Below, in pieces: positions 22,824 through 46,407 of a stretch of 64,000 nt of DNA. Source of the stretch: Bryobacter aggregatus MPL3 (GTDB lineage: Bacteria; Acidobacteriota; Terriglobia; Bryobacterales; Bryobacteraceae); the NCBI RefSeq assembly GCF_000702445.1, contig NZ_JNIF01000003.1, positions 3,038,001 through 3,102,000 on the forward strand. The letters run 5' to 3'. How positions within the stretch are numbered: position 1 is the first letter of the stretch; each line of letters opens with the position of its first letter. The notes under the pieces are model-generated. The model did no database searches. It was not told the origin of the DNA and saw only the letters and a program-made list of their open reading frames with translations. The position numbers and the translations under genes were made by a program.

Positions 22824-24845
22824 TTATTGATCACGCCGGCGGGTGAAGCGGCGATCGCCTACACCTTTTGAGGGGCCTTTGAATGGAGGTTTGCTGTGGC
22901 TCTCCGCCTGAGGACGGAAGGACGTTTTCGGGCCCCAATCGCCGCGCGAAGGAGGCTTTGCACTCCAATCAGACTTTGGTTTGGGGGACCACTTGGAGTC
23001 GCCACGAGGAGCGTCACCGCCGCGAGGTGCCCAGTCGGACTTGCCGCGTGAAGGAGGTTTCGCACCCCAATCAGACTTCGGCTTCGGACTCCAATTCGAG
23101 CCGCTCCGGGAGTCGTCGCCACCGCGAGGGGACCACTCCGCCTTACCACGCGCAGGAGGCTTCGAGCCCCAATCGGACTTCGGCTTTGGAGACCAGTTCG
23201 AGCCGCCCCGCGAGTCGTCGCCCCCGCGAGGTGCCCAGTCGGATTTACCACGCGAAGGAGGTTTCGCACCCCAGTCAGACTTCGGCTTCGGACTCCAATT
23301 CGAGCCGCTCCGGGAGTCGTCGCCCCCGCGAGGTGCCCAGTCGGATTTACCACGCGAAGGAGGCTTCGCACCCCAGTCGGACTTCGGCTTCGGCGACCAG
23401 TTCGAGTCGCCACGAGGAGCATCACCACCGCGAGGTGCCCAGTCGGATTTGCCACGTGAAGGAGGTTTCGCACCCCAGTCGGACTTCGGCTTCGGGGACC
23501 AGTTCGAGTCGCCACGAGGAGCATCACCACCGCGAGGTGCCCAGTCGGATTTGCCACGTGAAGGAGGTTTCGCACCCCAGTCGGACTTCGGCTTCGGCGA
23601 CCAGTTTGAGTCGCCACGGGGAGCGTCACCACCACGAGGTGCCCAGTCGGATTTACCACGCGAAGGAGGTTTTGCACCCCAGTCGGACTTCGGCTTCGGG
23701 GACCAGTTCGAGTCGCCACGAGAAGCATCACCACCACGAGGGGACCACTCCGCCTTACCACGCGAAGGAGGCTTCGCACCCCAGTCGGACTTCGGCTTCG
23801 GAGACCAGTTCGAGTCGCCACGGGGAGCGTCGTCCCCGCGAGGTGCCCACTCCGCCTTGCTGCCCGTACGTGGTTTCGGATTCCAAGTGGACTTCTTGGG
23901 AGACCATTGTGAGTCGCTACGAGAATCGCCGCCGCGAGGCGCCCGATCGGATCTATCGCGTGAAGGCGATTTCGCACTCCAATCTGACTCAACCGGCTTC
24001 GACCGGCCGAACTGCGTCCGTGAAGGCGGCCTCATTCCTCCTTGCGCATCCGGGGCCGCTTCCGTTTCCTTCCGTACCGGCTTCTCTTCCATCCCAGCCA
24101 GCTTCATGAGTTTCGTCACTTCGCCCGGATTCAGATGGCGCCACTTGCCGGATTCAAGTCCCGTCAGGGTCAGCGGCCCCAGATTGGTCCGCACCAGCTT
24201 CAATACCTGGCTATCCATCGCCTCGATCATCCGGCGCACTTGCCGGTTTTTGCCTTCGGTAATCGTGAGCTCGACAAAGCTCTTCGATTCGTTCTCACGC
24301 ACCCGGTTGACGATCGCCGGCCTTGTCATGCCATCCTTCAATTCCACGCCTTGGCGCAGCGTCTCGAGCGCCTCATCCGACAGTTTGGTCGAACACTTCA
24401 CGAGATAAGTCTTCGGCACATGGAATTCCGGATTCGTCATCCGCTCGGCGAGCGCCGTGTCATTGGTCAGCAAGAGCAGTCCGCTGGTATCTTCATCCAG
24501 CCGGCCCACGGTCCCGACAAAGGATGGAACGTCGGTAAGCAGGTCGTAGACGGTCTTCCGGCCTTCCGGGTCGCCCTTACTCGTAATGTAGCCTGCGGGC
24601 TTATAAAGGAGGATGTAAAGCTTGTCGAGCGTCTTGACCAGACGCCCGTCCAATTCAATCCGGTCCTGGATCGGATCGATCCACTCATCCGGATTCTCGA
24701 CCATCCTGCCATTCACCGTCACCCGCCGCGAGTGGATCCAGTGCCGTGCATCCGTTCGCGAGCCCAGGCCCGCCTTGGAGATCACGCGTTCGAGCGTCTT
24801 GCTCGTAATCGGGCTCTTGGTTGTTTTCTTTATTGGGCGGTCCAT
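22824..24845 (-). CDS. RsuA/RluB-type rRNA pseudouridine synthase with repetitive tail
   Basis: Residues 18-75 form an S4 RNA-binding domain (RVISKAGLGSRTDARHWI) and about 76-240 the catalytic domain, with nucleophile Asp117 in GRLDEDTSGLLLLTND, PAGYITSKGDPEGRKTV and EGKNRQVRRM. These match enzymes that modify uridine in 16S or 23S rRNA; which site cannot be told. From about residue 265 the protein is disordered and basic, with nine copies of a 34-residue unit (331-636), making it 673 residues instead of the usual 240-300. It starts at ATG 24845, overlapping the 3' end of the aldehyde dehydrogenase gene by 16 bases, and its stop is only 43 bases before the dehydrogenase start, so the three genes look co-transcribed. 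Confidence 0.95.
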   Translation of the reverse strand: MDRPIKKTTKSPITSKTLERVISKAGLGSRTDARHWIHSRRVTVNGRMVENPDEWIDPIQDRIELDGRLVKTLDKLYILLYKPAGYITSKGDPEGRKTVYDLLTDVPSFVGTVGRLDEDTSGLLLLTNDTALAERMTNPEFHVPKTYLVKCSTKLSDEALETLRQGVELKDGMTRPAIVNRVRENESKSFVELTITEGKNRQVRRMIEAMDSQVLKLVRTNLGPLTLTGLESGKWRHLNPGEVTKLMKLAGMEEKPVRKETEAAPDAQGGMRPPSRTQFGRSKPVESDWSAKSPSRDRSDRAPRGGDSRSDSQWSPKKSTWNPKPRTGSKAEWAPRGDDAPRGDSNWSPKPKSDWGAKPPSRGKAEWSPRGGDASRGDSNWSPKPKSDWGAKPPSRGKSDWAPRGGDAPRGDSNWSPKPKSDWGAKPPSRGKSDWAPRGGDAPRGDSNWSPKPKSDWGAKPPSRGKSDWAPRGGDAPRGDSNWSPKPKSDWGAKPPSRGKSDWAPRGGDDSRSGSNWSPKPKSDWGAKPPSRGKSDWAPRGGDDSRGGSNWSPKPKSDWGSKPPARGKAEWSPRGGDDSRSGSNWSPKPKSDWGAKPPSRGKSDWAPRGGDAPRGDSKWSPKPKSDWSAKPPSRGDWGPKTSFRPQAESHSKPPFKGPSKGVGDRRFTRRRDQ
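22938..23855 (-). repeat. Nine tandem 102-bp coding repeats in the pseudouridine synthase tail
   Basis: Each unit encodes 34 residues close to SDWAPRGGDAPRGDSNWS followed by PKPKSDWGAKPPSRGK. Units three to five are identical in protein sequence; others differ mainly in the APRGD/DSRSG positions and in SDW versus AEW. The near-identity at DNA level suggests recent expansion by unequal exchange. Because of the high identity this tract is also a likely place for assembly or length errors. Confidence 0.95.
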
Positions 24846-26243: not shown

Positions 26244-26981
26244 ATGCGTACAGTCCTCATTACGGGTGCCAGCAAGGGAATCGGAGCGGCTACGGCTCTG
26301 GCCTTCGCGAAAGAAGGGGCATCCCTTCTCATCCATTACTCATCAGACAAGAGCGGAGCCGAAGCAGTGGCCAGCGAAGCTCGGGCCCTCGGCGCCACTG
26401 CCGAAACGATCCATGCCGATCTCGCCACTCTGGCCGGTGCACAAGCATTTGCAGAAACACTGAAGGGCCGCAAGATTGACGTACTGATTAATAATGCCGG
26501 TTCGCTCCTCGGCAGACACTCTTTAGCCAGCATGCCCTCGGATCATTGGGAGCAGACGGTGATGCTCAATCTCTCGAGCGTCTTTTATGTCACCCAGGCG
26601 GTTGTGCCGCACATGATCGAACAGAAGCAGGGTTGGATCGTCAATGTCGGGTCCATTGCCGGACGCAATGGCGGCGGTCCGGGAGCTTTTGCTTACGCCA
26701 CCTGCAAAGGCGCCGTTTCTGCGCTCACCAAGGGCATGGCCAAAGAACTGGCACCGCAAGGCATCCATGTGAATTGCGTCGCTCCCGGTGTGATCGCCAC
26801 CCATTTCCACGAGGTTTTCTCGACGCCGCAAATGCTCGAGAGCTTCAAAGCAAACACCCCCGCCGGCCGCTTGGGCAGCAGCGAAGAAACCGCCGATGTC
26901 ATTGCCTACCTGTGTTCTCCACAAGCCGCGTATATCTACGGCCAAACCATTGAAGTCAACGGTGGCATGTACTTCGCATAG
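26244..26981 (+). CDS. Short-chain dehydrogenase/reductase, FabG-like
   Basis: A 245-residue classical SDR. The NAD(P)-binding TGASKGIG lies at 7-14, NNAG at 83-86, and the catalytic Ser137, Tyr151 and Lys155 (YATCK) are all present. The C-terminal PAGRLGSSEETADVIAYLCS and IEVNGGM match FabG-type 3-oxoacyl-ACP or glucose-dehydrogenase-like reductases. The start ATG 26244 immediately precedes MRTVLITGAS; upstream in-frame codons read as the antisense of the aldehyde dehydrogenase. It is divergent from aldehyde dehydrogenase by 34 bases, suggesting shared control. It converges with the NDH-2 fusion (three-base gap). Substrate is unknown. Confidence 0.94.
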   Translation: MRTVLITGASKGIGAATALAFAKEGASLLIHYSSDKSGAEAVASEARALGATAETIHADLATLAGAQAFAETLKGRKIDVLINNAGSLLGRHSLASMPSDHWEQTVMLNLSSVFYVTQAVVPHMIEQKQGWIVNVGSIAGRNGGGPGAFAYATCKGAVSALTKGMAKELAPQGIHVNCVAPGVIATHFHEVFSTPQMLESFKANTPAGRLGSSEETADVIAYLCSPQAAYIYGQTIEVNGGMYFA

Positions 26982-26984
26982 TTT

Positions 26985-29051
26985 CTAGTTCACTTCGCGG
27001 AGTGCGTCTCGCTCGGCCTGGATCTTGCGCATTACAAGCGCCATCAGCGATTCGAGACGAATATATCCTGCAATGCGCCGGTCGTTGATGTCATAGACGA
27101 CCGGCATTCTCTTCATGCTCCGCTCCCGCATCATCTCCGTCACGAGCAGCGGCGAATCGTCCACCGTGACCCAGATCGGATTCTGCGTCATGATGTCCTT
27201 CACCTTGATCTTGCCGCGCTCCTCCTCGGGCATGGCCGCGATCATTTCGAGCGTCGACAACAGATCGGTTCGCGTCAGAACGCCGGACAGATTCGCCTTC
27301 TCATCGACAACGCAGAAAAAGTCTGCTTTCTCTCTTTCAAACTGACCCACTGCCGAAGTAAAGGTGCAGTTCTCGCTGAGAGGTTGCGAGGGCAAGGGTT
27401 CGATTACATCCTTCAGCACGCTGTGCTTCAGAATGTCGCTTGAGCGCGGTAGCTTCTGCCGCATCGTTGTCCGCTTCCGGATCGCGTTATTCACCTGTTG
27501 CGACAAGGGGGCGAGGATCTTCGACATCTTGGCGAACATCCCTTTGCCAATAATCGTCAATTCGACATCGGTTCTGGCCCGCACACTGGCGTTGCGCGGC
27601 CGGTCTTCCACCAGCGCCATCTCGCCAAAGAAATCGCCGGGGCCGAACATGGCCACCATCTCTGGCTCCTGTCCGTCCTCAATCTGCCGCATCACCTCCA
27701 CCTCGCCCTTCTCGATGACGTAGAAGTCGGTGGCGGGATCACCCTTCTTGAAGATAAAACTGCCGGCTTCAAAGTAGGCGTCGTGGACGCGATTCGCATG
27801 GTCGATCTTGACGCCCGTGATATCGCGCGAGAACATCAACTCCCAGGTCCAGTCGAGAGCCACCTTCACCTTGCGTGAGAAGGAGGGAATCTTCAGGAGA
27901 TAGACGGTCCGCCAGATGAACCAGGCAATAAAACCGGAGAGCTTCACGCCCATCATTTCGGCGACGGCATTGTGTCCGCCAATGGCGCACAGCATGCCCA
28001 GGGGCTTGAAATAGAAGGGCTTGGTGGGCTTGCCTTGGAGCAGCGCGAAAAGATTGGCGGCGCATTGCTTGCCTTGCCGTTCCGCAAATTGTCCCGTTGG
28101 CGGAGAGGGCTCGTTGTCAAAGCTATTGAGGACCAAGGCGCAGTCTCCAATGGCCCATGCGTTCTCATAACCCAGCAGCCGCATATCGGGCTGTGTCTTC
28201 AAGCGGCCCTTGTCTTTCTCCGCCTTCATCCTTTCGACAAACGGATGCGGGGCCGTGCCTGTTGTGCCCACGACAGTTGCGGCATGAAAGTGTGTCCCAT
28301 CACTGAGCGTCACACCATCGGCTGTCACCATCTTCACGCGCTGTTTCAGGACGATCTTGACCCCGTTCTGCTCCATCTTCTTCTTGGTGAAGTCGCGCAG
28401 GGTGGAGGAGACTTCGGGGAGTAACTGCTCCCGGCTATGGATCAAGATGACCTGCGATTCTTCCGGCTTGATCGTCGGGTAATACTTCTCACTTGCTTGC
28501 AGGAGATCGTTGATTTCGCCGGCTACCTCGACTCCCGAGAAGCCGCCTCCGATCACTGCGAAGGTCAGGAAGAACTCCCGGCGTACGGGGTCCTCACAAA
28601 CCGCTGCCTGCTCGAGCTGCTGCGAAATCTGCGCCCGCAATGCCACCGCATCGGCGACCGTACGAAACGGAAAGGCATGATCGGCCATCCCCGGTACAGC
28701 GCTGAGATTCACACCACTGCCGCAGGCAATAATCACATGGTCGTATTTCAGAGTCCGTTTCAGTCCATCGAAGCTTTCAAACACGAGCGTGTTTTCGGGC
28801 AGATGGATGTCGATCACCTTTTCGCGGCGGCACTCCACGTCGGGCAACGCCACCCGCAGCGGGGTGGCAGGAACTTCCGCCTGGATCGAACTTCCGGCTA
28901 CTTCCGCCAACAGCGGTTGGAACACCATATAGTTCTCTTCGCTGAATACGACAATGTGCGCTTCCTCGGTGCTCATCAACCGGCGAAGCCGACGCCCACA
29001 AGCCACCCCGGCGAACCCGCCTCCGACAATCGCAATTGTTTTCTTCGCCAT
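26985..29051 (-). CDS. NDH-2-type NADH dehydrogenase fused to cyclic-nucleotide-binding and CBS domains
   Basis: A 688-residue three-part protein. Residues 1-415 are a type II NADH:quinone oxidoreductase: FAD site GGGFAGVACGR (10-20), NAD site VIGGGFSGVEVAGE (167-180), AIGDCA (300-305) and the C-terminal membrane-binding helix region (SGFIAWFIWRTVYLL, 372-386). Residues about 420-545 are a cyclic-nucleotide-binding domain, with phosphate-binding cassette FGEMALVEDRPRNASV (475-490), which keeps the Glu and Arg typical of cAMP/cGMP ligands. Residues about 548-680 are two CBS motifs (ending VKDIMTQNPIWVTVDDSPL and IAGYIRLESLM), which bind adenine nucleotides. The C-terminal two domains look like those of putative signal-transduction proteins. 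Expected role: nucleotide-controlled electron entry at the inner membrane. All domains appear intact. Confidence 0.93.
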   Translation of the reverse strand: MAKKTIAIVGGGFAGVACGRRLRRLMSTEEAHIVVFSEENYMVFQPLLAEVAGSSIQAEVPATPLRVALPDVECRREKVIDIHLPENTLVFESFDGLKRTLKYDHVIIACGSGVNLSAVPGMADHAFPFRTVADAVALRAQISQQLEQAAVCEDPVRREFFLTFAVIGGGFSGVEVAGEINDLLQASEKYYPTIKPEESQVILIHSREQLLPEVSSTLRDFTKKKMEQNGVKIVLKQRVKMVTADGVTLSDGTHFHAATVVGTTGTAPHPFVERMKAEKDKGRLKTQPDMRLLGYENAWAIGDCALVLNSFDNEPSPPTGQFAERQGKQCAANLFALLQGKPTKPFYFKPLGMLCAIGGHNAVAEMMGVKLSGFIAWFIWRTVYLLKIPSFSRKVKVALDWTWELMFSRDITGVKIDHANRVHDAYFEAGSFIFKKGDPATDFYVIEKGEVEVMRQIEDGQEPEMVAMFGPGDFFGEMALVEDRPRNASVRARTDVELTIIGKGMFAKMSKILAPLSQQVNNAIRKRTTMRQKLPRSSDILKHSVLKDVIEPLPSQPLSENCTFTSAVGQFEREKADFFCVVDEKANLSGVLTRTDLLSTLEMIAAMPEEERGKIKVKDIMTQNPIWVTVDDSPLLVTEMMRERSMKRMPVVYDINDRRIAGYIRLESLMALVMRKIQAERDALREVN

Positions 29052-30227: not shown

Positions 30228-33200
30228 ATGTCCATCATGCGCCTCCTCCTTGTCCTCGCGATTTCCACCCTCAGCTTTGGAGCGGCGCCTATCGAGTTCA
30301 ATCGCGACGTCCGGCCGATTCTCTCCGACAAGTGCCTGGCCTGTCACGGTGCCGACGCGAAGAACAAGGGCATTCCGCTTCGTCTCGACATCGAAGCTCA
30401 GGCGAAAGCAGACCTCGGCGGCCACCGCGCTATCGTCCCCGGCAATCCCGAGGCGAGCGAACTCGTGAAACGAATCAACACCGATTCGAAGGCTCGCAAG
30501 ATGCCCCCCATCTTCACCGGTCACGTCCTCACCCAGGCCGAGCGCGACACCCTTACTCAATGGATCGCCCAAGGAGCACAGTGGCAGAAGCACTGGAGCT
30601 TCATTCCTCCCGTGCGCCCTGCCTTGCCCAAGGTCTCGGACGAGAAATGGGCGCGCAATCCCATCGACAACTTCATCCTCGCCAAGCTTGATCGCGAAGG
30701 TCTCAAGCCCAGCCCGGAGGCGTCCAAGGACCGGCTCATCCGCCGCGTCACCCTCGATCTGACCGGCGTGCCCCCGACTCCGGCTGAAGTCGATACCTTT
30801 CTCAAGGACAAGTCCCCCGATGCCTATGACAAGGTCGTCCAGCGTCTGTTGGCCAACCCAAAGTACGGGGAACGCCTTGCCATGCGCTGGCTCGACAACG
30901 CGCGCTATGCCGATTCGAATGGCTACCAATACGACGGGGAACGCCAGATGTGGCGCTGGCGCGATTACGTCATCGAGAGCTTCAACAAGAACAAACCCTT
31001 CAATGATTTCATTACTGAGCAGATTGCCGGTGACCTGCTGCCCAACGCGACCATGGAACAGAAGATGGGCACGGGCTTCAATCGCAACCACCGCGCGAAC
31101 ACGGAGTTCGGCATCGTTGCCGAAGAGTACGCGGTGGAGTATGTGATCGATCGCGTCGAGACAAACAGCGCTGTGTTCCTCGGTCTCACCATGGGCTGCG
31201 CCCGCTGCCACAACCACAAGTACGATCCGACGACGCAGAAGGAGATGTACCAGTTCTACGCCTACTTCAACAATGTGCCCGAGCACGGCCGCGCTATGAA
31301 GTACGGCAACTCGCCGCCGCTCATTGCCGCGCCCACGCAAGACCAGCAGGCAAAGCTCGCGCAGTTGGATCAGTCGATCGAGCAGGCGCGTAAGGCGCTG
31401 CGTGTCTCGGCCACCCAGCAGCAAAGCTGGCAGACCTCGCTCCTGAAGCAGCCGGAACAGCACTGGGTCCCCGCCGTCGACCTCAAGCGGAAGCTCAGCT
31501 TTGAGGACCCCGAGCAGACACGGGCCAACGCGGGCATCGTGCGCTTTGTGCCGGGCCGCATCGGCAAGGCGGTCGAACTCGATGGCACTAACTATCTCGA
31601 CGCCGGATTTGAAGCTGCCAACTTCGACATCGAAGAACGCTTCACCATTGCAACCTGGGTCTACTCCGACAAGCTGCCGAACGGAACCTTGTTTTCGCGC
31701 ATGAATGACCGCTTGAAGGGCCGTGGCTATGGCCTCGAGGCGCGCGAGGGCAAGATCCACGTCCACTTCACTTCGGAATTTGCCGACGACGCAATCCGCA
31801 TGGACAGCGAAGCCGTGCTCCAGCCCAAGACCTGGCAACACGTGACGCTCACCTACAACGGCTCTCGCATGGCCGACGGTATCAAGGTCTATGTGGATGG
31901 CAAGCCGGTGCCGCTGAAGATCGAAATCGACGCGATCTACCGGCCCTTTAATAACGCAGCCAAGCAGTTTCCTGAACCCTTCCGCATCGGCGCCGGTGGT
32001 GGCCCCACCAAGCGTTTCGCCGGCCGTTTCGATGAACTCGGTGTCTGGTCACGCGTACTCTCGACAGAAGACATCGCGGTTCTCGCCGAAGGCAAGAGCC
32101 TCCAGCAACTCGCGCAAGATCCGAGCTCTCCTCATGCCAAGCGAGTGCTGCGCGCAGCCTATCTCGAGGCGGGAGCTCCTCAGCCGCAGCGGGAACTGTG
32201 GGCCAGGATCCAGCAGTTGGAACACGATCGCGAGCTCTTTGAATTCGAGCTCCCCACCGTCATGGTGATGGCGGAAATGCCCGTTCGCCGCGACACCTTC
32301 ATCCTGCAACGGGGTGAATATGACAAGCCCGGTGAGAAGGTGGAGCCTGGAGTGCCCAGCTTTCTGCCGCCGCTCCCCGCAGGCGCGCCGAACAACCGCC
32401 TCGGCCTGGCGCAGTGGATGACGGCAAAGGACCACCCGCTCACTGCTCGCGTGAACATCAACCGCTTCTGGCAAGCGATCTTCGGCACGGGCATCGTCAA
32501 GACGACGGAAGACTTCGGTAACCAAGGCGAATGGCCCTCGCACCCCGAACTCCTCGATTGGCTCGCCACGGAGTTTGTGGAATCCAAGTGGGACCTCAAG
32601 CACATGATGCAGCTGATGGTGACCAGCGCCGCCTATCGTCAGGATTCGCGCACCACTCCCGATCTCACCCAGCGTGACCCCGAAAATCGATGGCTCGCCC
32701 ACGGCCCCCGTCTGCGTCTGCCCGCCGAAGCGATTCGCGACCAGGCGCTCTACGCCGCAGGTCTGCTGAATCCGAAACTCGGTGGCCGCAGCACCAAGTC
32801 CTACCAGCCTGCGGGGCTCTGGGAAGAGCAGTCGATGCAGAACATGGACTACGAGCAGGACCACGGCGCAGACCTCTACCGCCGCTCGCTGTACATGTAC
32901 TGGAAGCGCACGATCGCGCCGCCAATGATGGTTACCTTCGACGCCTCGACGCGCGAGAGCTGCACGGTGCGCGAATCACGCAGTAACACACCGCTGCAGG
33001 CGCTCAATCTGATGAACGATGTCACCTTCCTTGAAGCCGGGCGTCAGATCGGGCGCCGCATGATCGCAGAAGGCGGCGCGACCGACGAGGCCCGTCTCAG
33101 CTACGGCATGAAGCTGCTGCTCTCGCGGACTCCAACGCCCAAGGAACTCAGTATCCTCAAATCGAACCTGAACTACCATCGCGACTACTTCGCCAGCAAT

Positions 33201-33335
33201 CCAGGACGCGTGGATACTTACTTGTCCAAGGGCGAGTCGCCCGTTTCCAAAACGATTCCGCCGCAGGAACAGGCTGCCTATATGGCGGTGGGCAACCTGA
33301 TTCTGAATCTCGATGAAGCAGTTACAAAGGACTAA
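30228..33335 (+). CDS. PSCyt1/DUF1549/LamG/DUF1553 exported protein (Planctomycete-type cytochrome C family)
   Basis: A 1,035-residue exported protein. A signal peptide (residues 1-22) leads into a cytochrome-c-like PSCyt1 domain with CLACH (about residues 37-41). DUF1549 follows (about 140-350, NPIDNFILAKLDREGLKPSPEA, RLIRRVTLDLTGVPPTPAE, and a second heme-like CARCHNHKYDP). A LamG/concanavalin-like domain is inserted (about 420-620, FTIATWVYSDKLP, GRFDELGVWSRVLS), and DUF1553 forms the C-terminal third (LAQWMTAKDHPLTARVNINR, RESRSNTPLQALNLMND). Function is not established; family members occur in Planctomycetes and Acidobacteria next to DUF1501 genes and are linked to polysaccharide utilisation. 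Here DUF1501 starts two bases downstream, so they form an operon. Start codon 30228 follows GGAG. Confidence 0.93.
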   Translation: MSIMRLLLVLAISTLSFGAAPIEFNRDVRPILSDKCLACHGADAKNKGIPLRLDIEAQAKADLGGHRAIVPGNPEASELVKRINTDSKARKMPPIFTGHVLTQAERDTLTQWIAQGAQWQKHWSFIPPVRPALPKVSDEKWARNPIDNFILAKLDREGLKPSPEASKDRLIRRVTLDLTGVPPTPAEVDTFLKDKSPDAYDKVVQRLLANPKYGERLAMRWLDNARYADSNGYQYDGERQMWRWRDYVIESFNKNKPFNDFITEQIAGDLLPNATMEQKMGTGFNRNHRANTEFGIVAEEYAVEYVIDRVETNSAVFLGLTMGCARCHNHKYDPTTQKEMYQFYAYFNNVPEHGRAMKYGNSPPLIAAPTQDQQAKLAQLDQSIEQARKALRVSATQQQSWQTSLLKQPEQHWVPAVDLKRKLSFEDPEQTRANAGIVRFVPGRIGKAVELDGTNYLDAGFEAANFDIEERFTIATWVYSDKLPNGTLFSRMNDRLKGRGYGLEAREGKIHVHFTSEFADDAIRMDSEAVLQPKTWQHVTLTYNGSRMADGIKVYVDGKPVPLKIEIDAIYRPFNNAAKQFPEPFRIGAGGGPTKRFAGRFDELGVWSRVLSTEDIAVLAEGKSLQQLAQDPSSPHAKRVLRAAYLEAGAPQPQRELWARIQQLEHDRELFEFELPTVMVMAEMPVRRDTFILQRGEYDKPGEKVEPGVPSFLPPLPAGAPNNRLGLAQWMTAKDHPLTARVNINRFWQAIFGTGIVKTTEDFGNQGEWPSHPELLDWLATEFVESKWDLKHMMQLMVTSAAYRQDSRTTPDLTQRDPENRWLAHGPRLRLPAEAIRDQALYAAGLLNPKLGGRSTKSYQPAGLWEEQSMQNMDYEQDHGADLYRRSLYMYWKRTIAPPMMVTFDASTRESCTVRESRSNTPLQALNLMNDVTFLEAGRQIGRRMIAEGGATDEARLSYGMKLLLSRTPTPKELSILKSNLNYHRDYFASNPGRVDTYLSKGESPVSKTIPPQEQAAYMAVGNLILNLDEAVTKD

Positions 33336-33337
33336 CG

Positions 33338-34720
33338 ATGCACACCAGACGTAAATTCACCGGCATCGGTTTTGCCGCGCTTGGTTCTTTATTGGGTAAA
33401 GATTCAGACACGCCGGTCGGCCTGCCGCACTTCCCGGCAAAAGCAAAGAACGTGATCCTGCTCTTCCAGCATGGCGCGCCGAGCCAACTCGATCTCTTCG
33501 ATTGGAAGCCCGGCCTGCAAGCACGCCGCGGGCAGAACCTGCCGGATTCGATTCGCAACGGCCAGCGCCTCACCGGCATGAGCGCCTATCAGGACAGCTT
33601 CCCAACGGCGCCCACGATCTTCAAGTTTGCGCAGCACGGCCAGTCGCAACAATGGTTCAGTGAACTGGTGCCTCACATGGCAAAGGTCTCGGACGATCTC
33701 TGCTTCGTCAAGAGTCTGCATACGGAGGCGATTAATCATGATCCGGCGGTGACCTTTTGCCAAACCGGCTTCCAGCTTGCCGGGCGTCCCAGCATTGGCT
33801 CCTGGGTTTCTTATGGCCTGGGCAGCGAGAATCAGAATCTCCCCGCCTATGTCGTGATGGTGAGCCAAGGCAGCGGTAACACGCAAGCGCTTGCCGATCG
33901 TAGCTTCGGCTCGGGCTTCCTCCCCACCAAGTACACCGGAGTAAAGTTCCGTGGTGGCGCTGATCCGGTGCTCTATCTGAGCGATCCCGAAGGCTACTCG
34001 CGCGAGGCGCGTCGCAAGTATCTCGACGACCTCGGACAACTGAATCAGATCAAGCTCGACGAATACCAGGACCCCGAGATTGCAACACGCATCGCGCAAT
34101 ACGAGATGGCCTTCCGGATGCAAGCGAGTGTTCCCGAGTTGAGCGATCTGTCGAAGGAATCGCCAGAGACTCTCGAGATGTACGGTCCTGAGGCCAAGAA
34201 GCCTGGCAGCTATGCGGCTAACTGCATCCTGGCCCGGCGTCTGGTGGAGCGGGGCGTCCGCTTCGTGCAACTTTTCCACCGGGGATGGGACCAGCACACG
34301 AATCTCCCGAAGGAGATCCGTGGCCAGTGTTTGGAAACCGATCAGCCCTCGGCGGCGCTGGTGCAAGACCTGAAGCAGCGTGGACTGTTGAAGGACACTC
34401 TCGTGATCTGGATGGGCGAATTTGGCCGTACGGTGTACTCGCAAGGCACGCTGACGGAGACCAACTACGGTCGCGATCATCATCCGCGTTGCTTTACGGC
34501 TTGGCTCGCTGGTGGCGGCTTCAAGGGTGGTCTTACTTATGGCGAGACCGACGACTTCTCGTACAACATCGCACAAGACCCGGTAGATCTTCACGACCTC
34601 CACGCGACGATCTTCCAGGCGCTCGGAGTGGACCACACCCGACTCACCTTCAAGTTTCAGGGGCGCCACTACCGCCTGACCGATGTCAAGGGCAGGGTAG
34701 TGAGGCCCCTGCTGAGCTAG
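33338..34720 (+). CDS. DUF1501 (sulfatase-like) exported protein
   Basis: A 460-residue protein of the DUF1501 family, whose members resemble alkaline-phosphatase/sulfatase folds. The N-terminus is Tat-like (TRRKFTGIGFAALGSLLG), so it is probably exported folded. Family segments seen are NVILLFQHGAPSQLDLFDWKP, HMAKVSDDLCFVKSLHTEAINHDPA, GRPSIGSWVSYGLGSE, LVERGVRFVQLFHRGWDQH and DTLVIWMGEFGRT with RDHHPRCFTAWLAGGG (quoted in pieces). Its function is not proven; it is almost always paired with a DUF1549/DUF1553 protein, as here, with only two bases between. Its TAG stop overlaps, tail to tail, the stop of the giant propeller gene (CTAG at 34717-34720). Confidence 0.93.
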   Translation: MHTRRKFTGIGFAALGSLLGKDSDTPVGLPHFPAKAKNVILLFQHGAPSQLDLFDWKPGLQARRGQNLPDSIRNGQRLTGMSAYQDSFPTAPTIFKFAQHGQSQQWFSELVPHMAKVSDDLCFVKSLHTEAINHDPAVTFCQTGFQLAGRPSIGSWVSYGLGSENQNLPAYVVMVSQGSGNTQALADRSFGSGFLPTKYTGVKFRGGADPVLYLSDPEGYSREARRKYLDDLGQLNQIKLDEYQDPEIATRIAQYEMAFRMQASVPELSDLSKESPETLEMYGPEAKKPGSYAANCILARRLVERGVRFVQLFHRGWDQHTNLPKEIRGQCLETDQPSAALVQDLKQRGLLKDTLVIWMGEFGRTVYSQGTLTETNYGRDHHPRCFTAWLAGGGFKGGLTYGETDDFSYNIAQDPVDLHDLHATIFQALGVDHTRLTFKFQGRHYRLTDVKGRVVRPLLS

Positions 34721-37700
34721 GGGGCGGTGACGCGCACCAGAATGGATCGGATGCTCGGGGTCGCAAATCCTTCTGGCGTTGTTAACTCGAGCACCGTGGA
34801 ACCCGGCTTCAAGCCCTCGATTTCAATTTCCTTCGTCGACTCTCCCGGTGCGAAAACCACTGTCTGCGCGGGCAGCTTCAACACCCCGAGCTCAGAGCTG
34901 CTCGCGGATAGGTGTACGGGTGAGGCCCCCGGACGCAGCCCATCCCAAAGCCTCCCAGCACTTCTCCCTTCGGAATCGACGGAGGTGAAGACAATCTCCA
35001 TTTTCCGCTTTTGCCCCACTGGTATGGTGATCGTGTTCGACGAGTACATCGCGTCGCTCAGCACAAAGCCGGTCTGGGCGAATCTTACCTCTTGCACCGT
35101 GTCCAGATATCCAGGGGCGCTGAAAAGAAGCTGTGTACTTCCACTACTGGCGAGGCCATGCAGATAGAAGCTCGTACTCGCTCCAGGTTCTATGGTGAGG
35201 CTTGCGGCGGGGAGAACTTTATTCGTCCGTGAGAGCAACAACGATGCGGGTTTGAGGGAGCGGACCGTCACTACGTTTTTCAGGCCCGAACTGATGTAAC
35301 TCGACGTGGTCGAATTGTAGTAAGCGGTTAGGGCTCCAGAGCTGATCGGAATCGAGGGTAGGCTGACAGTAACCGTCAGCGCCCGATCCAGCGCAGGCGG
35401 TGCGGCCGCAAAGCCCTCTGGAACGCCAATCCGGAGTGTTGCTGTTCCTTCGCCTACCGCGGTAATTATGAAGTCGCTCTGGCCGTAATTGAGGTTGCGG
35501 GCCGAGGAGACGCTCACAACTTTGGGGTTGCTGGACTCCAGCAAAAACAGAAGGGGATCCATTGCTGGATATAGAGATCCATACCCGCTACCGGAAATAA
35601 TTTTACTCAACTCCGGTCTTGGGATGGGATAGATGCGGACGCTGCTGCGAGCTTCCTGGCCGAGCGCCAAGCTCATTCGATCCGGAGAACCGTATTCTGA
35701 GAACTGAAAGTAAGAGTTGTTCAGGTAGAGCGTTGTTCTACCGGTTTCGTAAGAGGCCAATGTGTACTCGATTTCGACTGTCCCCTCGAATGCAAGCGCT
35801 TCCGCATAAAACACTTCGGAGTTTTGTGTATTCGCATTCCAGACGACATTGAGAGACGCAGCCGAGTTTCCGGTGCTGCGGCGGAGAACGAGTTTGCTCG
35901 GGTCGAGACTCCGGACGGATAGGATTGCATTGTCGGCCGGACCACTTCCTCCAGTTTCTACCTGGACGGATAATGCGCTCCAGATACCTCGAGAGACAAT
36001 GCTCGGAGGCATGGTTAAAGCGGCTTTCTGGGTGGTCACCCGGTAGGGCCCGGCGACGGAAACCGGATTGCCCGGCGGACGGATTTCAAATTTCAGATCC
36101 GCCTCTCCTGGCGCAAGGGCGTCGAGCTTGACGTTGAGATAGCCAACGCCTGGCTTGAACACGCCACTCGGCGTCACCTTCAATGCTCCTGGATTTGAGT
36201 TTGAGATTTGTAGGCTAATCTCCCCGACGCCCGGTCGCGGGCCTGCGGTTGCAAAGCGGTCTGGCGTCGTGATCGACGCTGACCAGGTGACGGGCGTATT
36301 GGTTCGGACCTTCAACTGTGGGGTTCCTGCATACGAATTGAGATTCATCGCAAGGAGCGCTGATCTCATGTAGATCCGCACGACGCTTTCTTCCGCCTGG
36401 TCGCTTTGCATTCTGAGGCTCCCCGATCCTTCCTCCGTCAGGCCGTGGAAATAGAAGTCTGCACTACTGCTGACCTGGATCGAAGTCTTTCCGGGATCGT
36501 TTGGAGAATTGCTGAGGAGGAATTTGGAAGGATCGAGTGAGGTCAGGGTCACAGAATTCTTCGGACTCCCCTCAATCGTCATGCGGCTTTGGACCAGCAT
36601 GTCTTTCACTGCGTAGTTGCTCGAACTCGTCAAGCTAGCCGTGCGGATCTGCATTGAGAGGCGGGTGCGGCGGGACGGAACCGAAAAGCCTTGGACGGGG
36701 GCAAGCACGATTTCCGAATCGCCCGCACTGGCCAGGATCGGCGTGACGATGCAGTAAGTGGCCGGACTGAGAAGCATGCACTGATCTTTGGATAGTGCTA
36801 CGTACTTGGGATCGGAGCTCAATTTGACGATTGCGCTGAGGCCGGGGCGGATTGCCTGGGCCAGCATCGGAATGCCGGTTTCGGGGTCGAGAAGATAAGA
36901 GGTCACCCGGACGCTGTCATTCATATAGCCGAAAACAAAGGACTCAATTTGGGTCGTCGTAAAAGCGAAGCCCGAGGGCGCCAGACGTACCGGAAAGGAG
37001 AACTCCTGCCGATTATCGATCTTGACCCGGACCGTGGTCTCTCCAGCGGCCGCAAGTCCGATGACATCAAAGTTGAAGTAGATCGAGCTGTCTCGATTGC
37101 CAAGGGTGAGACTCGAGGAATATTCTTGTGCGGAAGAGTTTGCGAGTTGCACGAGCGAGGCGTCATCCACGGTGATCTTCATCGTCTCTTTCGCGTAATT
37201 CGGAACGCTGAAACCAACCGATTGCCGGAGATCCTTCCCCACCGTGACCGCAGGGATTGAGATCTCGACAGGCGGGTTGTCGCGAATGGTGACTTCGATC
37301 GGCTCGGGCGCATAGAAGGACTCATCATCCATGCTCACCGTCAGCGTAGCCTTACCCTTCGCAAGTCCTCGGAAGGGGCCGAAGCTGTTCGCGATCGGGC
37401 TGCTGTTCGCATTCGTTTTGATCACCTCCGGGTTGCTGCTGAGCGCTTTTGCCGTCGGATAGGGGTAAGGGTTTAGGTTGGTCTTCTCGCCGTCAAAAAA
37501 GAACTTCGCTGCAAGATAGAAATCCACATTGGGAGGCGCTTGAACACCATCGGCTGGTCCGCCCGTACTGTTGGTTCCGCCAGAGAATTCCACCCTCACT
37601 TTGCGCAAGTCGACCTGGACCCAGATGTCTTCTTCAAAAAGATCCGATTGGAGTCGGACCCGCGTGCTCCCCTCAGAGGCGACACCCTTCACAAAGAGAT

Positions 37701-40590
37701 TAAGAGAGGAAGTCGGCTGTTCGATCGAAAGCTCGGCGCTTGCGGCATGGATCGCATTCGTTCCAGTTGAGATTCCGACGAGAACCTGACTCGGATCTTC
37801 ACTCTCGACCCTGAATTTTCCTCGATATATAGGAGCGGTTTGGTTCGTTCTCAATCGACTCGAAAACGAGATCGAGGTGGTTTGACCTTTGTAGATAACG
37901 ATACGGTCTTGTGCGGCTGTGAGCCGGGCGGGAACGATCCGCATCTGCAAGGCGCCGATCGGGTAAACGGGGTAATTCGACGTCGCGGTGACTGTGACCA
38001 CGCCCGGCGCCAGGGGGGTGACGTCATAGTTGCTGGCGCTGTAGCTGGATGGCTCTTTGCTAATCGACGCCACGGAAGGGTCGGATACCTCAAATCGGAA
38101 CTGGGGCGCAGGCATCGATGGAGCCAGGTAGAACGATTGAAAGCTCGCATTCACCGTTCCATCGGGGCCGACGATTACGGGGAAAGTCGAAATCGTCCCT
38201 GCGCTCACGAGCATGTCCAGAACGGTTGGAACAGACACTGAATAGGAAAAGGCGCCCGTGCGGAGTTGCACGCGTCGAGTCGGAAATCCGGGCATGCTGA
38301 ACGTGACCGTCGTATCGCCGCTGTCCTGGAGTCCAACGAATTGCAGGCTGGCCGCGCCGCTATAGGTCGAAAGTAGAAAAGTTGCTTCGCCCTTGGTTTG
38401 GTCATTCAGCAGCACGCCGCCAACTGAGGGGTCTTCGACGCGTATCGTGATGGGATCCAGTTGCAGATTGGCCGACGATCGTAGCGATATGGTGGTGCGG
38501 GCTCCCTTGGCGACCCAAATCGTTTCCGGAATTTCAAGGGTTTGTGTCGTTACATCGGCAAGGAACGAGTCCACGCCGGAATCGAGTTTCATCTGCCAGG
38601 ATTTTTTGGTGGGCAGGTCGGGTGAAGTGGTTGTTCCAGCAAGCCTAAGCAAACCCGTCGAGGTCAAGTAGATGCCGTTGATCTCATCCTCGCCGGAGCC
38701 TCCAAAATAGCTGAGTTGATTCCATTCTCCCGAAGCCGTGATGTACCCGAAGAAGCCATCTTTAGAACCATTGAGCTTCGATTGCAGCGCGCCGCTGGTG
38801 GGAAGATCCGGACTGGTGGTAGAGCCGCCAAATGCGAAACCTCCTATTCCTGAGGTCAGTGTGCGGATGGACTCTGTGCCCGAGCCGCCAACATAGGTGA
38901 GATGAGTGGGGTCATAGGCGCCTGCACGATAGATCCCAAAAAACGCATCGACGCCGCCGCCCAAGCGCTCCTGTACGGCGTGGCGCACCGGGAGATCTGG
39001 AGAGGTCGTTTCCCCGGCAACTCCCAGCGCTCCGGAGAGGGTGCTGAGACCGAGAATGCGATCTTCTCCGCTGCCTCCGAGGCGTGTCGCGCCGATGAAT
39101 TGTGGTTCTATCGCCAAGCCAGAGCTCGTTGTTCCGGCAATGATATCGACCAGGAATGCATCGCTCGGTCCCGATAAGTCTCCAGCCACAGCCGGAAACA
39201 CCGGGGAGCGAGTCTCTCCTCCAAATCGAATGCTGTTCAACGGAGCGCCGGAATAGGCGATGGCGGAGGCGACATCATCCCCGCTTCCTCCCCAGTAAGT
39301 GGAGAACATCAATTTTGACAAGTCGGAGGCGGACACCGTCGAGACAAATGCATCTGTACCCCCTCCCTGTTCCCATTGGAATGCCTTTGCGACCGGAAAG
39401 TCGCTGGAGTCTGTGGAGCCGACCACCACAATGGAACCGTTCAAATAGAGGGATGCGTTTGCGCGGTCTGCTCCTGACCCTCCGATATATCGTCCGGACA
39501 TGGACATAGAAGACTGGATGCTTTGAGTCCAATAGCCCTGCAACGTAAGAACGAAGGCATCGGAGGGGCCCCCTCCATACTCGTTAACAAATTTTCTCGA
39601 TTCCAGCGAGAAATCTCTGCTCGAGGTAGTTCCGGTCAGAACCAAATAGGCGGTGGTGTAGCTGGATGCTGCGGACAGAGAGACCATCGTGGCCGATGCA
39701 ACCTCATCATCGCCAGACCCTCCAAAAACCATCGTGTATCCATTGAACAGGACGGTCCCAAGTTGCTGGGCTGCTGGCGTCGGACTGAGAAAGCGCACCA
39801 TGATGTCGCGCTGACGGCGCTTGGCGGGCGTCGCACCCAGTAAGGCGATGGAGGTGGTGGAGCCTGCCGCATAGCCGTTCCCGACAACGGTCAATCGATC
39901 ATCGCCCTCGCCTCCCAAGTAAGTGGCGAACTCAAGGACCGGATCAACGACCAACGGCAAATCGCGTCGATAAGTGTCTGCCTGAAAACAGAACTCGTTT
40001 GAACCGCAGGAATACAATCCACCGTTGACCGGCACCCGCCCAGCCGGAGTGTCCTGGTACAGCTGCGGCGCCAGTTGTGTCAGCTTGCGACTTCCCACAT
40101 TTGTCGCGAGCTGAGAGTCCTGCAACTGGAGCGGCTCGCTCGAACGCAGACGGATGCGCTTCGGGTCCGCGCCGGGATGCACGATGAAGTCATACTCCAG
40201 CTTTCCCGCAACTCGATAGAAGGTGAGGTCGATTCCGGGGTAGACTCCTTTGCGAATGATTCGCTCGTACTGCGGAGCATTCTCCACCCACTGCTTCGGG
40301 TCGCTTCCGGTCTTGTAGCTGATCGTTCTGCCGATCGGACCGACCTGCTCCCATTTGCCCGCTTGGATGCCTGGCAGCGTGATCGACAGCTCCTGCATGT
40401 CTCCGGCTTCGTCGGGCTGCAGGAGCCGGAACCCATCGGATCGAAACGAGACAAATCCCTGTCCTTGTCTCGAGAAGAATTCGATTTTCGGATCCACTTG
40501 GCCGAGGTTCTTTTCAAATGAGGCGTCCTTTGACGTCGTGCTCGCCAACATACATATTGCGGAGGCAAGAATTAGGGAGATGGTTTTCAT
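34717..40590 (-). CDS. Giant exported SBBP beta-propeller/Ig-like stalk protein (paralogue A)
   Basis: A 1,957-residue exported protein. A signal peptide (residues 1-20) is followed by a DUF7948-like module (about 24-215, FEKNLGQVDPKIEFFSRQ and YDFIVHPGADPKRI). Then come SBBP-type propeller repeats (about 220-690) with the recurring YxGGSGxD motif (YLGGEGDDR, FGGSGDDEV, YIGGSGADR, YWGGSGDDV, LGGSGEDRI, YVGGSGTES, YFGGSGEDE). The remaining 1,260 residues are repeated beta-sandwich-like segments with SxDPSxxxV and xAxGxxTVTxxS patterns, like bacterial Ig-like (Big) or invasin-type stalks. No sortase, type IX or autotransporter end is visible. It likely acts at the cell surface or outside, in adhesion or matrix roles; this is inference. 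It lies 16 bases after paralogue B's stop, same strand. No Shine-Dalgarno is visible. Confidence 0.88.
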   Translation of the reverse strand: MKTISLILASAICMLASTTSKDASFEKNLGQVDPKIEFFSRQGQGFVSFRSDGFRLLQPDEAGDMQELSITLPGIQAGKWEQVGPIGRTISYKTGSDPKQWVENAPQYERIIRKGVYPGIDLTFYRVAGKLEYDFIVHPGADPKRIRLRSSEPLQLQDSQLATNVGSRKLTQLAPQLYQDTPAGRVPVNGGLYSCGSNEFCFQADTYRRDLPLVVDPVLEFATYLGGEGDDRLTVVGNGYAAGSTTSIALLGATPAKRRQRDIMVRFLSPTPAAQQLGTVLFNGYTMVFGGSGDDEVASATMVSLSAASSYTTAYLVLTGTTSSRDFSLESRKFVNEYGGGPSDAFVLTLQGYWTQSIQSSMSMSGRYIGGSGADRANASLYLNGSIVVVGSTDSSDFPVAKAFQWEQGGGTDAFVSTVSASDLSKLMFSTYWGGSGDDVASAIAYSGAPLNSIRFGGETRSPVFPAVAGDLSGPSDAFLVDIIAGTTSSGLAIEPQFIGATRLGGSGEDRILGLSTLSGALGVAGETTSPDLPVRHAVQERLGGGVDAFFGIYRAGAYDPTHLTYVGGSGTESIRTLTSGIGGFAFGGSTTSPDLPTSGALQSKLNGSKDGFFGYITASGEWNQLSYFGGSGEDEINGIYLTSTGLLRLAGTTTSPDLPTKKSWQMKLDSGVDSFLADVTTQTLEIPETIWVAKGARTTISLRSSANLQLDPITIRVEDPSVGGVLLNDQTKGEATFLLSTYSGAASLQFVGLQDSGDTTVTFSMPGFPTRRVQLRTGAFSYSVSVPTVLDMLVSAGTISTFPVIVGPDGTVNASFQSFYLAPSMPAPQFRFEVSDPSVASISKEPSSYSASNYDVTPLAPGVVTVTATSNYPVYPIGALQMRIVPARLTAAQDRIVIYKGQTTSISFSSRLRTNQTAPIYRGKFRVESEDPSQVLVGISTGTNAIHAASAELSIEQPTSSLNLFVKGVASEGSTRVRLQSDLFEEDIWVQVDLRKVRVEFSGGTNSTGGPADGVQAPPNVDFYLAAKFFFDGEKTNLNPYPYPTAKALSSNPEVIKTNANSSPIANSFGPFRGLAKGKATLTVSMDDESFYAPEPIEVTIRDNPPVEISIPAVTVGKDLRQSVGFSVPNYAKETMKITVDDASLVQLANSSAQEYSSSLTLGNRDSSIYFNFDVIGLAAAGETTVRVKIDNRQEFSFPVRLAPSGFAFTTTQIESFVFGYMNDSVRVTSYLLDPETGIPMLAQAIRPGLSAIVKLSSDPKYVALSKDQCMLLSPATYCIVTPILASAGDSEIVLAPVQGFSVPSRRTRLSMQIRTASLTSSSNYAVKDMLVQSRMTIEGSPKNSVTLTSLDPSKFLLSNSPNDPGKTSIQVSSSADFYFHGLTEEGSGSLRMQSDQAEESVVRIYMRSALLAMNLNSYAGTPQLKVRTNTPVTWSASITTPDRFATAGPRPGVGEISLQISNSNPGALKVTPSGVFKPGVGYLNVKLDALAPGEADLKFEIRPPGNPVSVAGPYRVTTQKAALTMPPSIVSRGIWSALSVQVETGGSGPADNAILSVRSLDPSKLVLRRSTGNSAASLNVVWNANTQNSEVFYAEALAFEGTVEIEYTLASYETGRTTLYLNNSYFQFSEYGSPDRMSLALGQEARSSVRIYPIPRPELSKIISGSGYGSLYPAMDPLLFLLESSNPKVVSVSSARNLNYGQSDFIITAVGEGTATLRIGVPEGFAAAPPALDRALTVTVSLPSIPISSGALTAYYNSTTSSYISSGLKNVVTVRSLKPASLLLSRTNKVLPAASLTIEPGASTSFYLHGLASSGSTQLLFSAPGYLDTVQEVRFAQTGFVLSDAMYSSNTITIPVGQKRKMEIVFTSVDSEGRSAGRLWDGLRPGASPVHLSASSSELGVLKLPAQTVVFAPGESTKEIEIEGLKPGSTVLELTTPEGFATPSIRSILVRVTAP

Positions 40591-40606: not shown

Positions 40607-43600
40607 TTAGCGAACGTTGATCAGAGATTCGATTGTTTGCGCGGGAGCCGTTCCAAACGCCGGAACGGAAATGCGGAGTACCACTGCACCGGCCCCACTA
40701 AGATCCAGTTTCAGATTTTTGATCGAGTCACCTGGCATCCATGTGACTTTGGAATCGCGAAACTTGGCAATGCCCGGCGCTGAGGTGGAAAGGGTCATTT
40801 CAATTGGTCCAATCAACGGACTCAATCCCGCGCAGGAGTAATTGCACCCCAGTTGGAGAGGAAGCTCCACTGTGCCCTGCGTCAGACTCACTTGGGAGAT
40901 TCTGGAGGCATCGGCGAAGAAGGTAGCATCTACGGCAGACAGCACTACCTTACCGTCGGTATAGCCAGGGGAACTGAGATACAGTTCGCCGTTTTTTGCA
41001 TCATTGCTGAGTGCCACGTAAACTTCTAGTTGTCGATAGGCGGAAGGTTGCACACTGAGTTCCGTGGCCAGGGCGGTCGTGGCGCTGGATCCCAGTCGGA
41101 AGCCACTCTCGGGACTGACCCGAAGCTTTACCATTTCTCTCGAGGAAGACGGCAGGCTGATGCTCATGAGCGAGACTGTCCCACGTCCAAAGGATCGGGG
41201 ATAGCCCTCGAAGCTCCAGGGGATGACTCGAATGGTCTGCGGCGTAGCCAGGACCTCTAAGTCCGCCGGCCCTTCCACGGACACTTCGGCCTCGCCGACG
41301 CTGTTGAATTGGATCGGAACCGAAGCATACAGGCCGTTTGAATTGATGACTCCCCGATTTCCGGACGGGAAGGAAACGACGTCTTCGCGACTCGAACGAA
41401 TGCGGAACTCCAGATCGCGCCCAGGCAGTGGGCGCAGCCCCCCCCCTGCCGACTTCGCGTAGTTCGGAATATACTCGATCCGAAGCTGAAGAGCCTGGCC
41501 GGCTTCTCCGATGTGATAAGGCGTGGACCAATTCGAAGAAGACCATCCGAGCGCCAGGGGTTCCTGGTAGACGGAGAAGGTCTGAGGCTCCCATCCATCC
41601 CGTTCCAAGCTGACCTCGTATCTTGCCGAGCTATTTTCCTTCATCACCGCCTGGAGGTAGACGCTTCCGTCACTCGCCAGAGAGGCGCTCTCGGTCCCGA
41701 TGCTTGTGCCGGTCGATGAAACGAGCAGGGCGTCCGGGTTCAAGGAGCGAATCTTGATTCCATTGGGTAGGGAATAGGTTCCCTCAATCCGAAACGAGAC
41801 ACGACTCTCGAAGCCTCGCCCCACCAGCAGCCATCCGTTGGCGGAGAGTGTCCCTTGGCGGACATTGATCTTTGCTTTCGAGGCCGGAGTGGCCGTATAT
41901 CCTTCCGGCTGATCGATCTCCAGGTAAGTTGTGCCAGCGGATAATGCTGAAAAGTTGACGGTCAATCCATTGAAGGAGTCTGAGGGGAAGCGTACGACGG
42001 GGCTGGGGCCCTCGACTTGCACGATCTCCGGAGCCGCGCTGCGGATTCGCAGGAGGAATGGCTCCGTTTCGGGAGTCAGGGTAACCGGGCCGACGTAATT
42101 GGAGCCCAATGTTTCTACTTCTCCAGAGACAGGATCGATGGGGGCGATGAGCATCCTGAGAGAGCCCCGCACGTTTGCGCCGGGCTGTTCCAAGCTGAGT
42201 TCTGCGCCGGGCAATCTTTGCCCGCTGCTGGACTCGGTGCGAAACACGATCGTCGCGGGGCCCACACGAACCGGAATTCTCATCGAAGGCCCTGCCGTGG
42301 ATTCGACCAGGATTTCCGTTTCTCCAGTTCGTTGACGAGCCTGGATATAGATCGGGTTGTAGGAAGAGTAATTCGACTTTACCTGAACCGATTCTTTTCC
42401 CATTGCGCCGGGCTGTGTCGAAATCAAAATCAGACTGGGGTCCAAAGAACGCAATTGGAACTCTGCTCCCGGGAAATTCGGGAACAGGCTCCATCCGACC
42501 TGCAGATTCGGAGCGAGGATCACGGGGCGTAACGACGAACTCATCCCTGCCGGATTTCCTCCGCTGATGAGGCGAACGGCAAGCTCCGGCATTGCTAACG
42601 TTTTGGTCTTCTCAAAGATGCGGATGGTCACTTCACCGCTTCCCATACATTGGATGGGGAGCTGGAAGGCCTTTCCGTAGGTTGGTTTCACCGTTTCGGT
42701 TGCTGTGCAAATCTGTGGATCAGAAGAATTGGCGCCGAATGTGATCGGCCGCGGGTTAGAGAAGGCGCCGCTAACCAACTTCCCTCCGTCATCTCCCTCA
42801 ATGCTCACGGTCAACGAGATCGTTGACGCCGTGATCCTCACCGGGGAAAGCTCGGTTGTCATGCGAGCGCTGATGATGCGGACTGGAATTTCCAGACCAT
42901 TGAGGAACGAATCTGTGAAGCGAAGCATCGTCCTGTCTCCCACCTTCCCCAGGGCGCGGATGACGACGGAGGTCGAAGCGGTGGGTAGCGGCAACACCGT
43001 CGCCGTGATTTGGTTGTTCGACACAAACTCGGCCACTCCCGGATTGGAATATTCGTAGCGGAGATTCCGGGTTGGCATCGCCGTCGCAAATTCCGTGAGG
43101 AAGGTGACCTGACTCTCCATTCCTTCCGGAATCAGGATCTCAGGGCCTCCCGTGTAGATCGATTGCGGGACAACGGTAAAGTCAGCCCAGACGTAGGGGG
43201 AGGCGAACTTTTGAGAGGGGAGGGACAGCGAGCAGCGTGCCGGACCTGTCTGAGAGAAGGTCATCTCGGTTTTGGAAGAATCAAAAGAGACAATCCGTCC
43301 TCGCGTGCATTGGAAATCAAGGAACGGGACCTCAGGCGCCAGGGGCGCGCTTGCGAGGCTCAGCACATCGGACATGGGATGGATCGCTACGAATGACAAC
43401 GAAAGACTTTGGGTGCTCAGTACGGGAACTCGTGGATTGATATTGATTCGCGCCGAGCTGGGTACGACAGTCAAGTCCAGGGTGTAGGTGACGCCCTTTG
43501 CCTCGGAAAAGATCAGACGGGTGCTTCCAGACTTTCCGATCGCCTGGATGAAATAGGTGTTCGCTCCGTAGGTTCCTGCCGGCGACTCGACTACGATCGA

Positions 43601-46342: not shown

Positions 46343-46407
46343 CCTAAACGTTGAATTGAAGAAACTCAATTTAACAATTTCAGAGATAGTCCTCGTATTT
46401 GAAGGAG

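Follow-up and report, generated by a model that had tools for sequence, protein, structure and literature searches.

A Bryobacter gene joining an NDH-2-family flavoprotein to a cyclic-nucleotide-binding domain and a CBS pair: a candidate gated NAD(P)H:quinone oxidoreductase

Introduction

Bacterial type II NADH dehydrogenase (NDH-2) is usually regarded as an entry point for electrons that has no regulation of its own, and plant NDH-2 is under the control of Ca2+. In the stretch of Bryobacter aggregatus MPL3 DNA analyzed here (64,000 nucleotides; referred to as the window), a single gene appeared to join NDH-2 to a cyclic-nucleotide-binding (CNB) domain and a CBS pair, which raises the question of whether this chain is real and, if so, whether its tail could gate the enzyme. 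On balance, we consider it probable, from sequence comparison, that the fusion is an NAD(P)H:quinone oxidoreductase under allosteric gating, comparable to the Ca2+-regulated eukaryotic NDH-2 but with other sensors. If this is true, signaling could throttle respiration at its first step, within one protein, and the fusion would be a simple system for studying respiration controlled in this way.

Domain organization of the fused gene

The three-part fusion proposed in the initial annotation was borne out by one open reading frame (ORF) of 688 aa, with an ATG start and zero internal stops, and by the Pfam domains that it contains (window positions):

26985..29051, minus strand: fused gene, NDH-2 + CNB + CBS pair, 688 aa (ORF, Pfam, homologues)
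28071..29039, minus strand: flavoprotein domain with two dinucleotide-binding sites, residues 5-327 (Pyr_redox_2, 4.8e-44; best solved matches NDH-2)
28437..28439, minus strand: codon of His205; canonical NDH-2 has an acid linked to NADH specificity (alignment)
28077..28094, minus strand: quinone-site motif GQFAER, residues 320-325, near the AQxAxR variant (alignment; PMC5299459)
27822..27998, minus strand: NDH2_C, membrane-interacting module, residues 352-410 (PF22366, 1.1e-11)
27765..27848, minus strand: junction from W401 to the CNB domain, residues 402-429, of constant length (30 residues from W401 to G430, 59/59)
27525..27776, minus strand: CNB domain (cNMP_binding), residues 426-509 (PF00027, 8.8e-25)
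27582..27629, minus strand: phosphate-binding cassette FGEMALVEDRPRNASV, residues 475-490, with Glu477 and Arg486 (sequence, alignment)
27237..27386, minus strand: CBS1, about residues 556-605 (limits set by us), with the motif GVLTRTDLL (Pfam stretch, alignment)
27033..27203, minus strand: CBS2, residues 617-673, without T/S-x-x-D (best stretch of PF00571)

Among solved structures, the N-terminal part was matched best by NDH-2 entries (9mqy, 4nwz, 5na1, and 9pxk), and the middle part by PKA regulatory subunits and by 9ya0, a protein of Toxoplasma. Pfam matched CBS in two stretches of the window protein (2.7e-13; best, residues 617-673), and these tandem motifs form a Bateman module. The cassette at residues 475-490, with Glu477 and Arg486, was present in the window copy as claimed, and the statement that a standard NDH-2 ends near residue 430 was fair: the host genome encodes a second, canonical NDH-2 of 430 aa, 28% identical to the fusion. 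This canonical enzyme elsewhere in the genome may leave the fusion free to specialize.

Distribution and phylogeny

The fusion was found in other assemblies at 85%, 70%, 51%, and 48% identity across almost its full length (the first two from Bryobacter sp. MAGs). Since the same domain order recurs in many assemblies, a local misassembly or frameshift joining two genes was ruled out. When the domain order was searched for across Acidobacteriota genomes, the fusion was found again, and it also occurred in Verrucomicrobiota and Gemmatimonadota. With residues 339-688 as the query, at least 8 of 250 genomes of the order carried the fusion (G000, the host, and G001, G002, G005, G014, G729, G778, and G831); the gene of G001 was frame-broken and split, and the other seven had intact ORFs of 674-689 aa. 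The fusion was carried by at least 3 of 297 genomes in a sample of the phylum, the host genome included, and by at least 19 of 288 genomes of Verrucomicrobiota, the phylum of a Pedosphaera MAG with the fusion (L067). Twelve fusions of Verrucomicrobiota formed one type (L086-L097, query included; the match of L089 crosses one upstream stop), while seven others (L102-L108) gave better alignments to the window protein (best segment, 46-49%). A further fusion, at 46%, was on plasmid 1 of Gemmatirosa kalamazoonensis (Gemmatimonadota).

CNB, CBS, and NDH2_C were all matched by Pfam in 31/31 aligned fusions from three phyla. In the alignment of two-domain NDH-2-CNB relatives (A2), CNB was matched in 14/14, and CBS only in the window protein. 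The set of rows excluded same-locus duplicates, loci matching only CNB or only CBS, the frame-broken L007, L064, L119 (G001), and L112 (G553), and L140, which is truncated at a contig edge. L036 and L065, open at the 5' end, were included in the counts, and L100, a probable two-domain member, is absent from them. Five two-domain rows (three on the Verrucomicrobial side and two divergent) were tallied apart from the 22 main ones. As a separate observation, the broken fusion copies (L064/L119 and L112) were spread over several frames and came from MAGs or other assemblies.

In a tree of the NDH-2 part, built on 50 of 107 rows, fusions, two-domain proteins, and plain relatives were separate from canonical NDH-2. 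The subgroup including the window protein (referred to as triQ) had a support of 100/99, and its grouping with another subgroup in the family of the host (referred to as G8) had 98/94; Verrucomicrobial fusions with a different CBS pattern are referred to as V-type. In the best tree, the fusions clustered with three two-domain Verrucomicrobial proteins at a support of 86/91. This support was too low to claim a single origin of the fusion, and the tree of the CNB domain alone was poorly resolved.

Between the window gene and that of L062, the dN/dS values were 0.04 (NDH-2), 0.05 (CNB), and 0.09 (CBS), which are rough because dS was near saturation (1.3-2.0). Where dS was finite in the remaining pairs, values for the CBS part spanned 0.12-0.45; this part was among the fastest evolving, which counts against gating. 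The dN/dS value was below 1 for every pair and domain having finite dS.

Junction and proposed mechanism

W401, where the membrane module ends, and G430 in the CNB domain span 30 residues in 59/59 proteins (31 fusions and 28 two-domain proteins). Inspection by eye of the ungapped junction in 57 of these agreed with this fixed length; the other two, L138 and L139, did not pass the motif filter used for that comparison. The spacings between the CNB domain and CBS1 (82-88), between CBS1 and CBS2 (65-73), and within the inner loop of the CNB domain (18-24) varied among relatives; spacings inside domains were also near-constant (G352-W401, 50 in 58/59; E477-F506, 30 in 54/59). Because the junction is fixed while the CNB-CBS linker varies, this pattern suggests a rigid link between the sensor and the quinone-site module: the junction resembles the interior of a domain rather than a tether. 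On the other hand, a fixed junction may also reflect packing without signaling. An AlphaFold model, for which the alignment input was six sequences (window protein and five loci), was poor (mean pLDDT 65.6, pTM 0.47, pLDDT below 50 at residues 349-423), and gave no trustworthy contacts.

In the mechanism that we favor, the fusion would be a membrane-bound flavoprotein of the NDH-2 family, in which FAD relays electrons from NAD(P)H to quinone, as judged from the family and conserved residues, and the C-terminal tail would act as an allosteric sensor. The CNB domain stands at a fixed distance from the membrane module adjoining the quinone site; a ligand bound there could shift this module and open or close access of quinone or the dimer. 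The CBS pair would probably sense an adenine nucleotide via its sole intact site, CBS1, and tune the CNB domain. Regulation in cis, as envisaged in the initial annotation, is the natural reading of the three-part domain order.

CBS pair

T/S-x-x-D in CBS is a motif of the adenosine site. In the triQ subgroup, this motif was found in CBS1 of 11/13 proteins (T..E and R..D in the others) and in none of the CBS2 domains, whereas the V-type fusions had it in CBS1 of 0/14 and CBS2 of 14/14; G8 had S..E and C..D, and therefore neither strict motif. Since triQ and V-type retain opposite CBS halves, one adenine-nucleotide site per pair appears to be enough. The idea that the tail senses adenine nucleotide status was weakened: the window protein has a CBS pair with T-x-x-D in CBS1, but the motif is absent from CBS2.

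A form of gating that overlaps with ours is that the tail senses another nucleotide, for example c-di-AMP or AMP/ATP via CBS1, with the CNB domain serving as a passive relay. CBS pairs can bind c-di-AMP, and a diadenylate cyclase domain was found in 7/8 genomes tested, including four Bryobacter; together with the predominance of T-x-x-D in CBS1 of triQ, this makes a different ligand possible. We doubt it as the full account, however, given that the Glu/Arg cassette is conserved in 22/22 two-domain proteins, which have no CBS pair.

CNB domain and cyclic nucleotides

Glu477 was found in 31/31 fusions, while Arg486 was found in 16/31 and lost in 15/31: it was kept in 11/13 of triQ (His in L006 and L102), 4/4 of G8, and 1/14 of V-type (Trp in 13), and was lost even in a 70%-identical Bryobacter. 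All of the main two-domain proteins (22/22) had Arg486. The V-type cassette resembles the consensus of the CBS family without Arg, GERALLAGGPYSLTARA, given in the available part of Kannan et al. (PMC2246266). Three two-domain Verrucomicrobial proteins (L098, L099, and L101) had a CNB domain without the FGE cassette, with both Glu and Arg lost, and no CBS pair; by their sequences, they appear to be natural examples of a decayed sensor.

Among five CNB matches in the host genome, those that kept both Glu and Arg were the fusion and L183, a CRP-like regulator (alignment by eye). Co-loss of Arg486 with this regulator, a pattern seen in G005, was rejected because close matches of the regulator were also not found in G001 and G002, which keep Arg486. 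A PF00211 search for class III cyclase found none in the host, G001, G005, or G778; there was one short match at a contig end in G002 (22.8 bits; cut-off, 21.9), and 11/15 genomes were matched overall. A CYTH protein was found in 4/4 Bryobacter genomes tested, the host copy reaching 46.8 bits, below the cut-off for class IV cyclases (57.95). Glu477 and Arg486 are kept in the window copy, but the proposed gating by cAMP or cGMP is weakened by the frequent loss of Arg486 elsewhere; since the host gave no match to class III cyclase, cAMP or cGMP is no more than a putative ligand.

These observations bear on a further explanation, that the tail has a structural role: its CNB and CBS folds would help to assemble dimers or oligomers or to position the protein at the membrane, and the binding of ligands would have decayed or never have had a controlling role. 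The loss of Arg486 in about half of the fusions, G8 without either strict CBS motif, the three cassette-less Verrucomicrobial relatives, and the lack of a class III cyclase match in the host and two congeners are all in its favor. We nevertheless regard it as rather unlikely, because Glu477 is invariant, Arg486 is universal in the main two-domain group, and the remaining CBS site has been selectively kept, which is needless for a purely structural role.

Catalytic part and cofactor specificity

The glycine residues of the two dinucleotide-binding motifs, GxGxxG (G10, G12, and G15) and GxGxxGxE (G168, G170, and G173), and E175 were invariant in 12 window-type rows, and E175, D303, Q321, A323, and R325 were invariant in 31 fusions. 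E175 corresponds, by motif, to E172 of Staphylococcus aureus NDH-2 (PMC5299459). In the part of the same paper available to us, AQxAxR is one of three quinone motifs of NDH-2 (with AQxAxQ and APxAxQ), found in 15% of 1762 NDH-2s. The window motif GQFAER has Q321, A323, and R325 of AQxAxR (12/12 window-type), with Gly in place of the first Ala (12/13 of the window subgroup). Compared with the AQxAxR group (PMC5299459), the fusion thus shares GxGxxGxE with E175, GD at 302-303, Q..A.R, and NDH2_C, but adds the C-terminal CNB domain and CBS pair, and has His205 instead of an acid and Gly320 instead of Ala.

Residue 205 aligns with Asp/Glu of solved NDH-2s and is Glu/Asp in 22/23 canonical NDH-2 rows; on the other hand, it was His in 13/13 of triQ and 14/14 of V-type, and Gln in 4/4 of the G8 fusions. 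The window protein therefore lacks the acid that, in NADH-specific members, stands where strand 2 of the NADH domain ends. According to the available part of PMC11670749, this acid (E272 in Ndi1) has been proposed to keep NADPH out; the same paper also describes a yeast enzyme that has Gln at this position and used only NADH. Since His replaces the canonical Glu/Asp, the window protein is likely to use NADPH or both NADH and NADPH, and the missing acid is a feature of a subtype and no bar to NDH-2 membership. The name "NADH dehydrogenase" is accordingly weakened by His205. In plain sister relatives without a sensor, residue 205 was His in 21/25 and Glu in 4/25, and Arg325 was found in 24/25. 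Because these relatives mostly carry His, the change at residue 205 is older than the sensor; since both residues are common in sensor-less relatives, His205 and Arg325 are features of the clade, unlinked to the tail.

It is quite improbable that the protein is instead a non-respiratory member of this superfamily, oxidizing NAD(P)H with a different acceptor. In favor of that reading, the best NCBIfam model was Nterm_to_SelD, far under the cut-off (128 of 310 bits), and His205 and Arg325 depart from canonical NDH-2; against it, NDH2_C was found in 31/31 fusions, the flavoprotein part was best matched by solved NDH-2s, and AQxAxR is a reported NDH-2 quinone motif (PMC5299459).

As a separate observation, a two-domain NDH-2-CNB protein on a plasmid of Rhodobacter sp. 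CZR27 (L162, 2905-4572) has VIEFA at 205, with Glu where the clade has His.

Returning to the gated oxidoreductase, the most specific version, which we put forward tentatively, is that the flow of NADPH electrons into the quinone pool is gated in one polypeptide by a second messenger together with the adenylate pool, with the CNB domain rigidly clamped to the quinone-site module and opposite CBS halves kept by two lineages. The likely use of NADPH would link the anabolic redox state to the quinone pool.

Comparison with known systems

The tail had been compared with signaling proteins of the DUF294 type. DUF294 was not matched by Pfam in the window protein or the host genome, and an origin from DUF294 in the host was therefore rejected. 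Six other genomes gave seven weak matches (21.0-28.1 bits; cut-off, 21), six of which sit in frames of 879-1000 aa that we presume to be GlnD/GlnE-like. No DUF294 protein was found among the matches listed in a CNB-CBS profile search. The module of a DUF294 CNB-CBS protein from Ruegeria sp. TM1040 (L163) is shared, with 28% identity to the V-type tail; this protein is annotated as nucleotidyltransferase-like and, unlike the fusion, keeps both CBS motifs. The comparison was therefore sound insofar as CNB-CBS modules are known elsewhere (PMC2246266), but not for the host itself.

In the available part of Kannan et al. 2007 (PMC2246266), the CNB-CBS family has the same CNB domain with a C-terminal CBS pair, and the Bact_Pyrredox family has the same CNB domain joined to an N-terminal pyridine-nucleotide flavoprotein; these are two separate families, Bact_Pyrredox has tandem CNB domains, and the three-part order does not appear in that part of the paper. 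No description of the three-part order was found in the open-access PMC literature among the matches listed. Both partial combinations are already in print.

The fusion also resembles EF-hand NDH-2 of fungi and plants, such as Neurospora crassa NDE1 (PMC11670749), in that both combine NDH-2 with a second-messenger domain, and NDE1, like the window protein, has an uncharged residue at the NADH/NADPH determinant. The fusion differs in having another sensor domain and in being bacterial, and its control is predicted from sequence. In the available part of the same paper, Ca2+ had no significant effect at two of three pH values on a yeast NDH-2 for which an EF-hand is predicted, which cautions against deducing control from domains.

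Genomic neighborhood and other observations

The fusion gene stands alone, between two plus-strand genes: an SDR-like gene (named from sequence) that ends at 26981 and, on the opposite flank, a histidine phosphatase gene with its start near 29114 (start chosen by us). No consistent operon partner was found, and the flanks were common only to Bryobacter loci. Outside the genus, window-like neighbors were limited to L177, with a PSCyt/DUF1501 pair nearby, and L178, with an SDR-like protein; a few other neighbor pairs recurred between single loci, where several of the longest frames were antisense shadows.

Several other features of the window were observed. A PSCyt1/DUF1549/LamG/DUF1553 protein and a DUF1501 protein (30228-34720) adjoin the fusion, as they do in L167, and similar proteins are near a V-type fusion in L177. 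Two adjacent minus-strand ORFs (34717-40590 and 40607-46369; 1957 and 1920 aa) both have an N-terminal DUF7948. A 102-bp tandem repeat of 8.9 copies (22945-23849) lies within an RNA pseudouridine synthase gene (22824-24845, minus strand), in which it encodes a long tail of repeats of about 34 aa.
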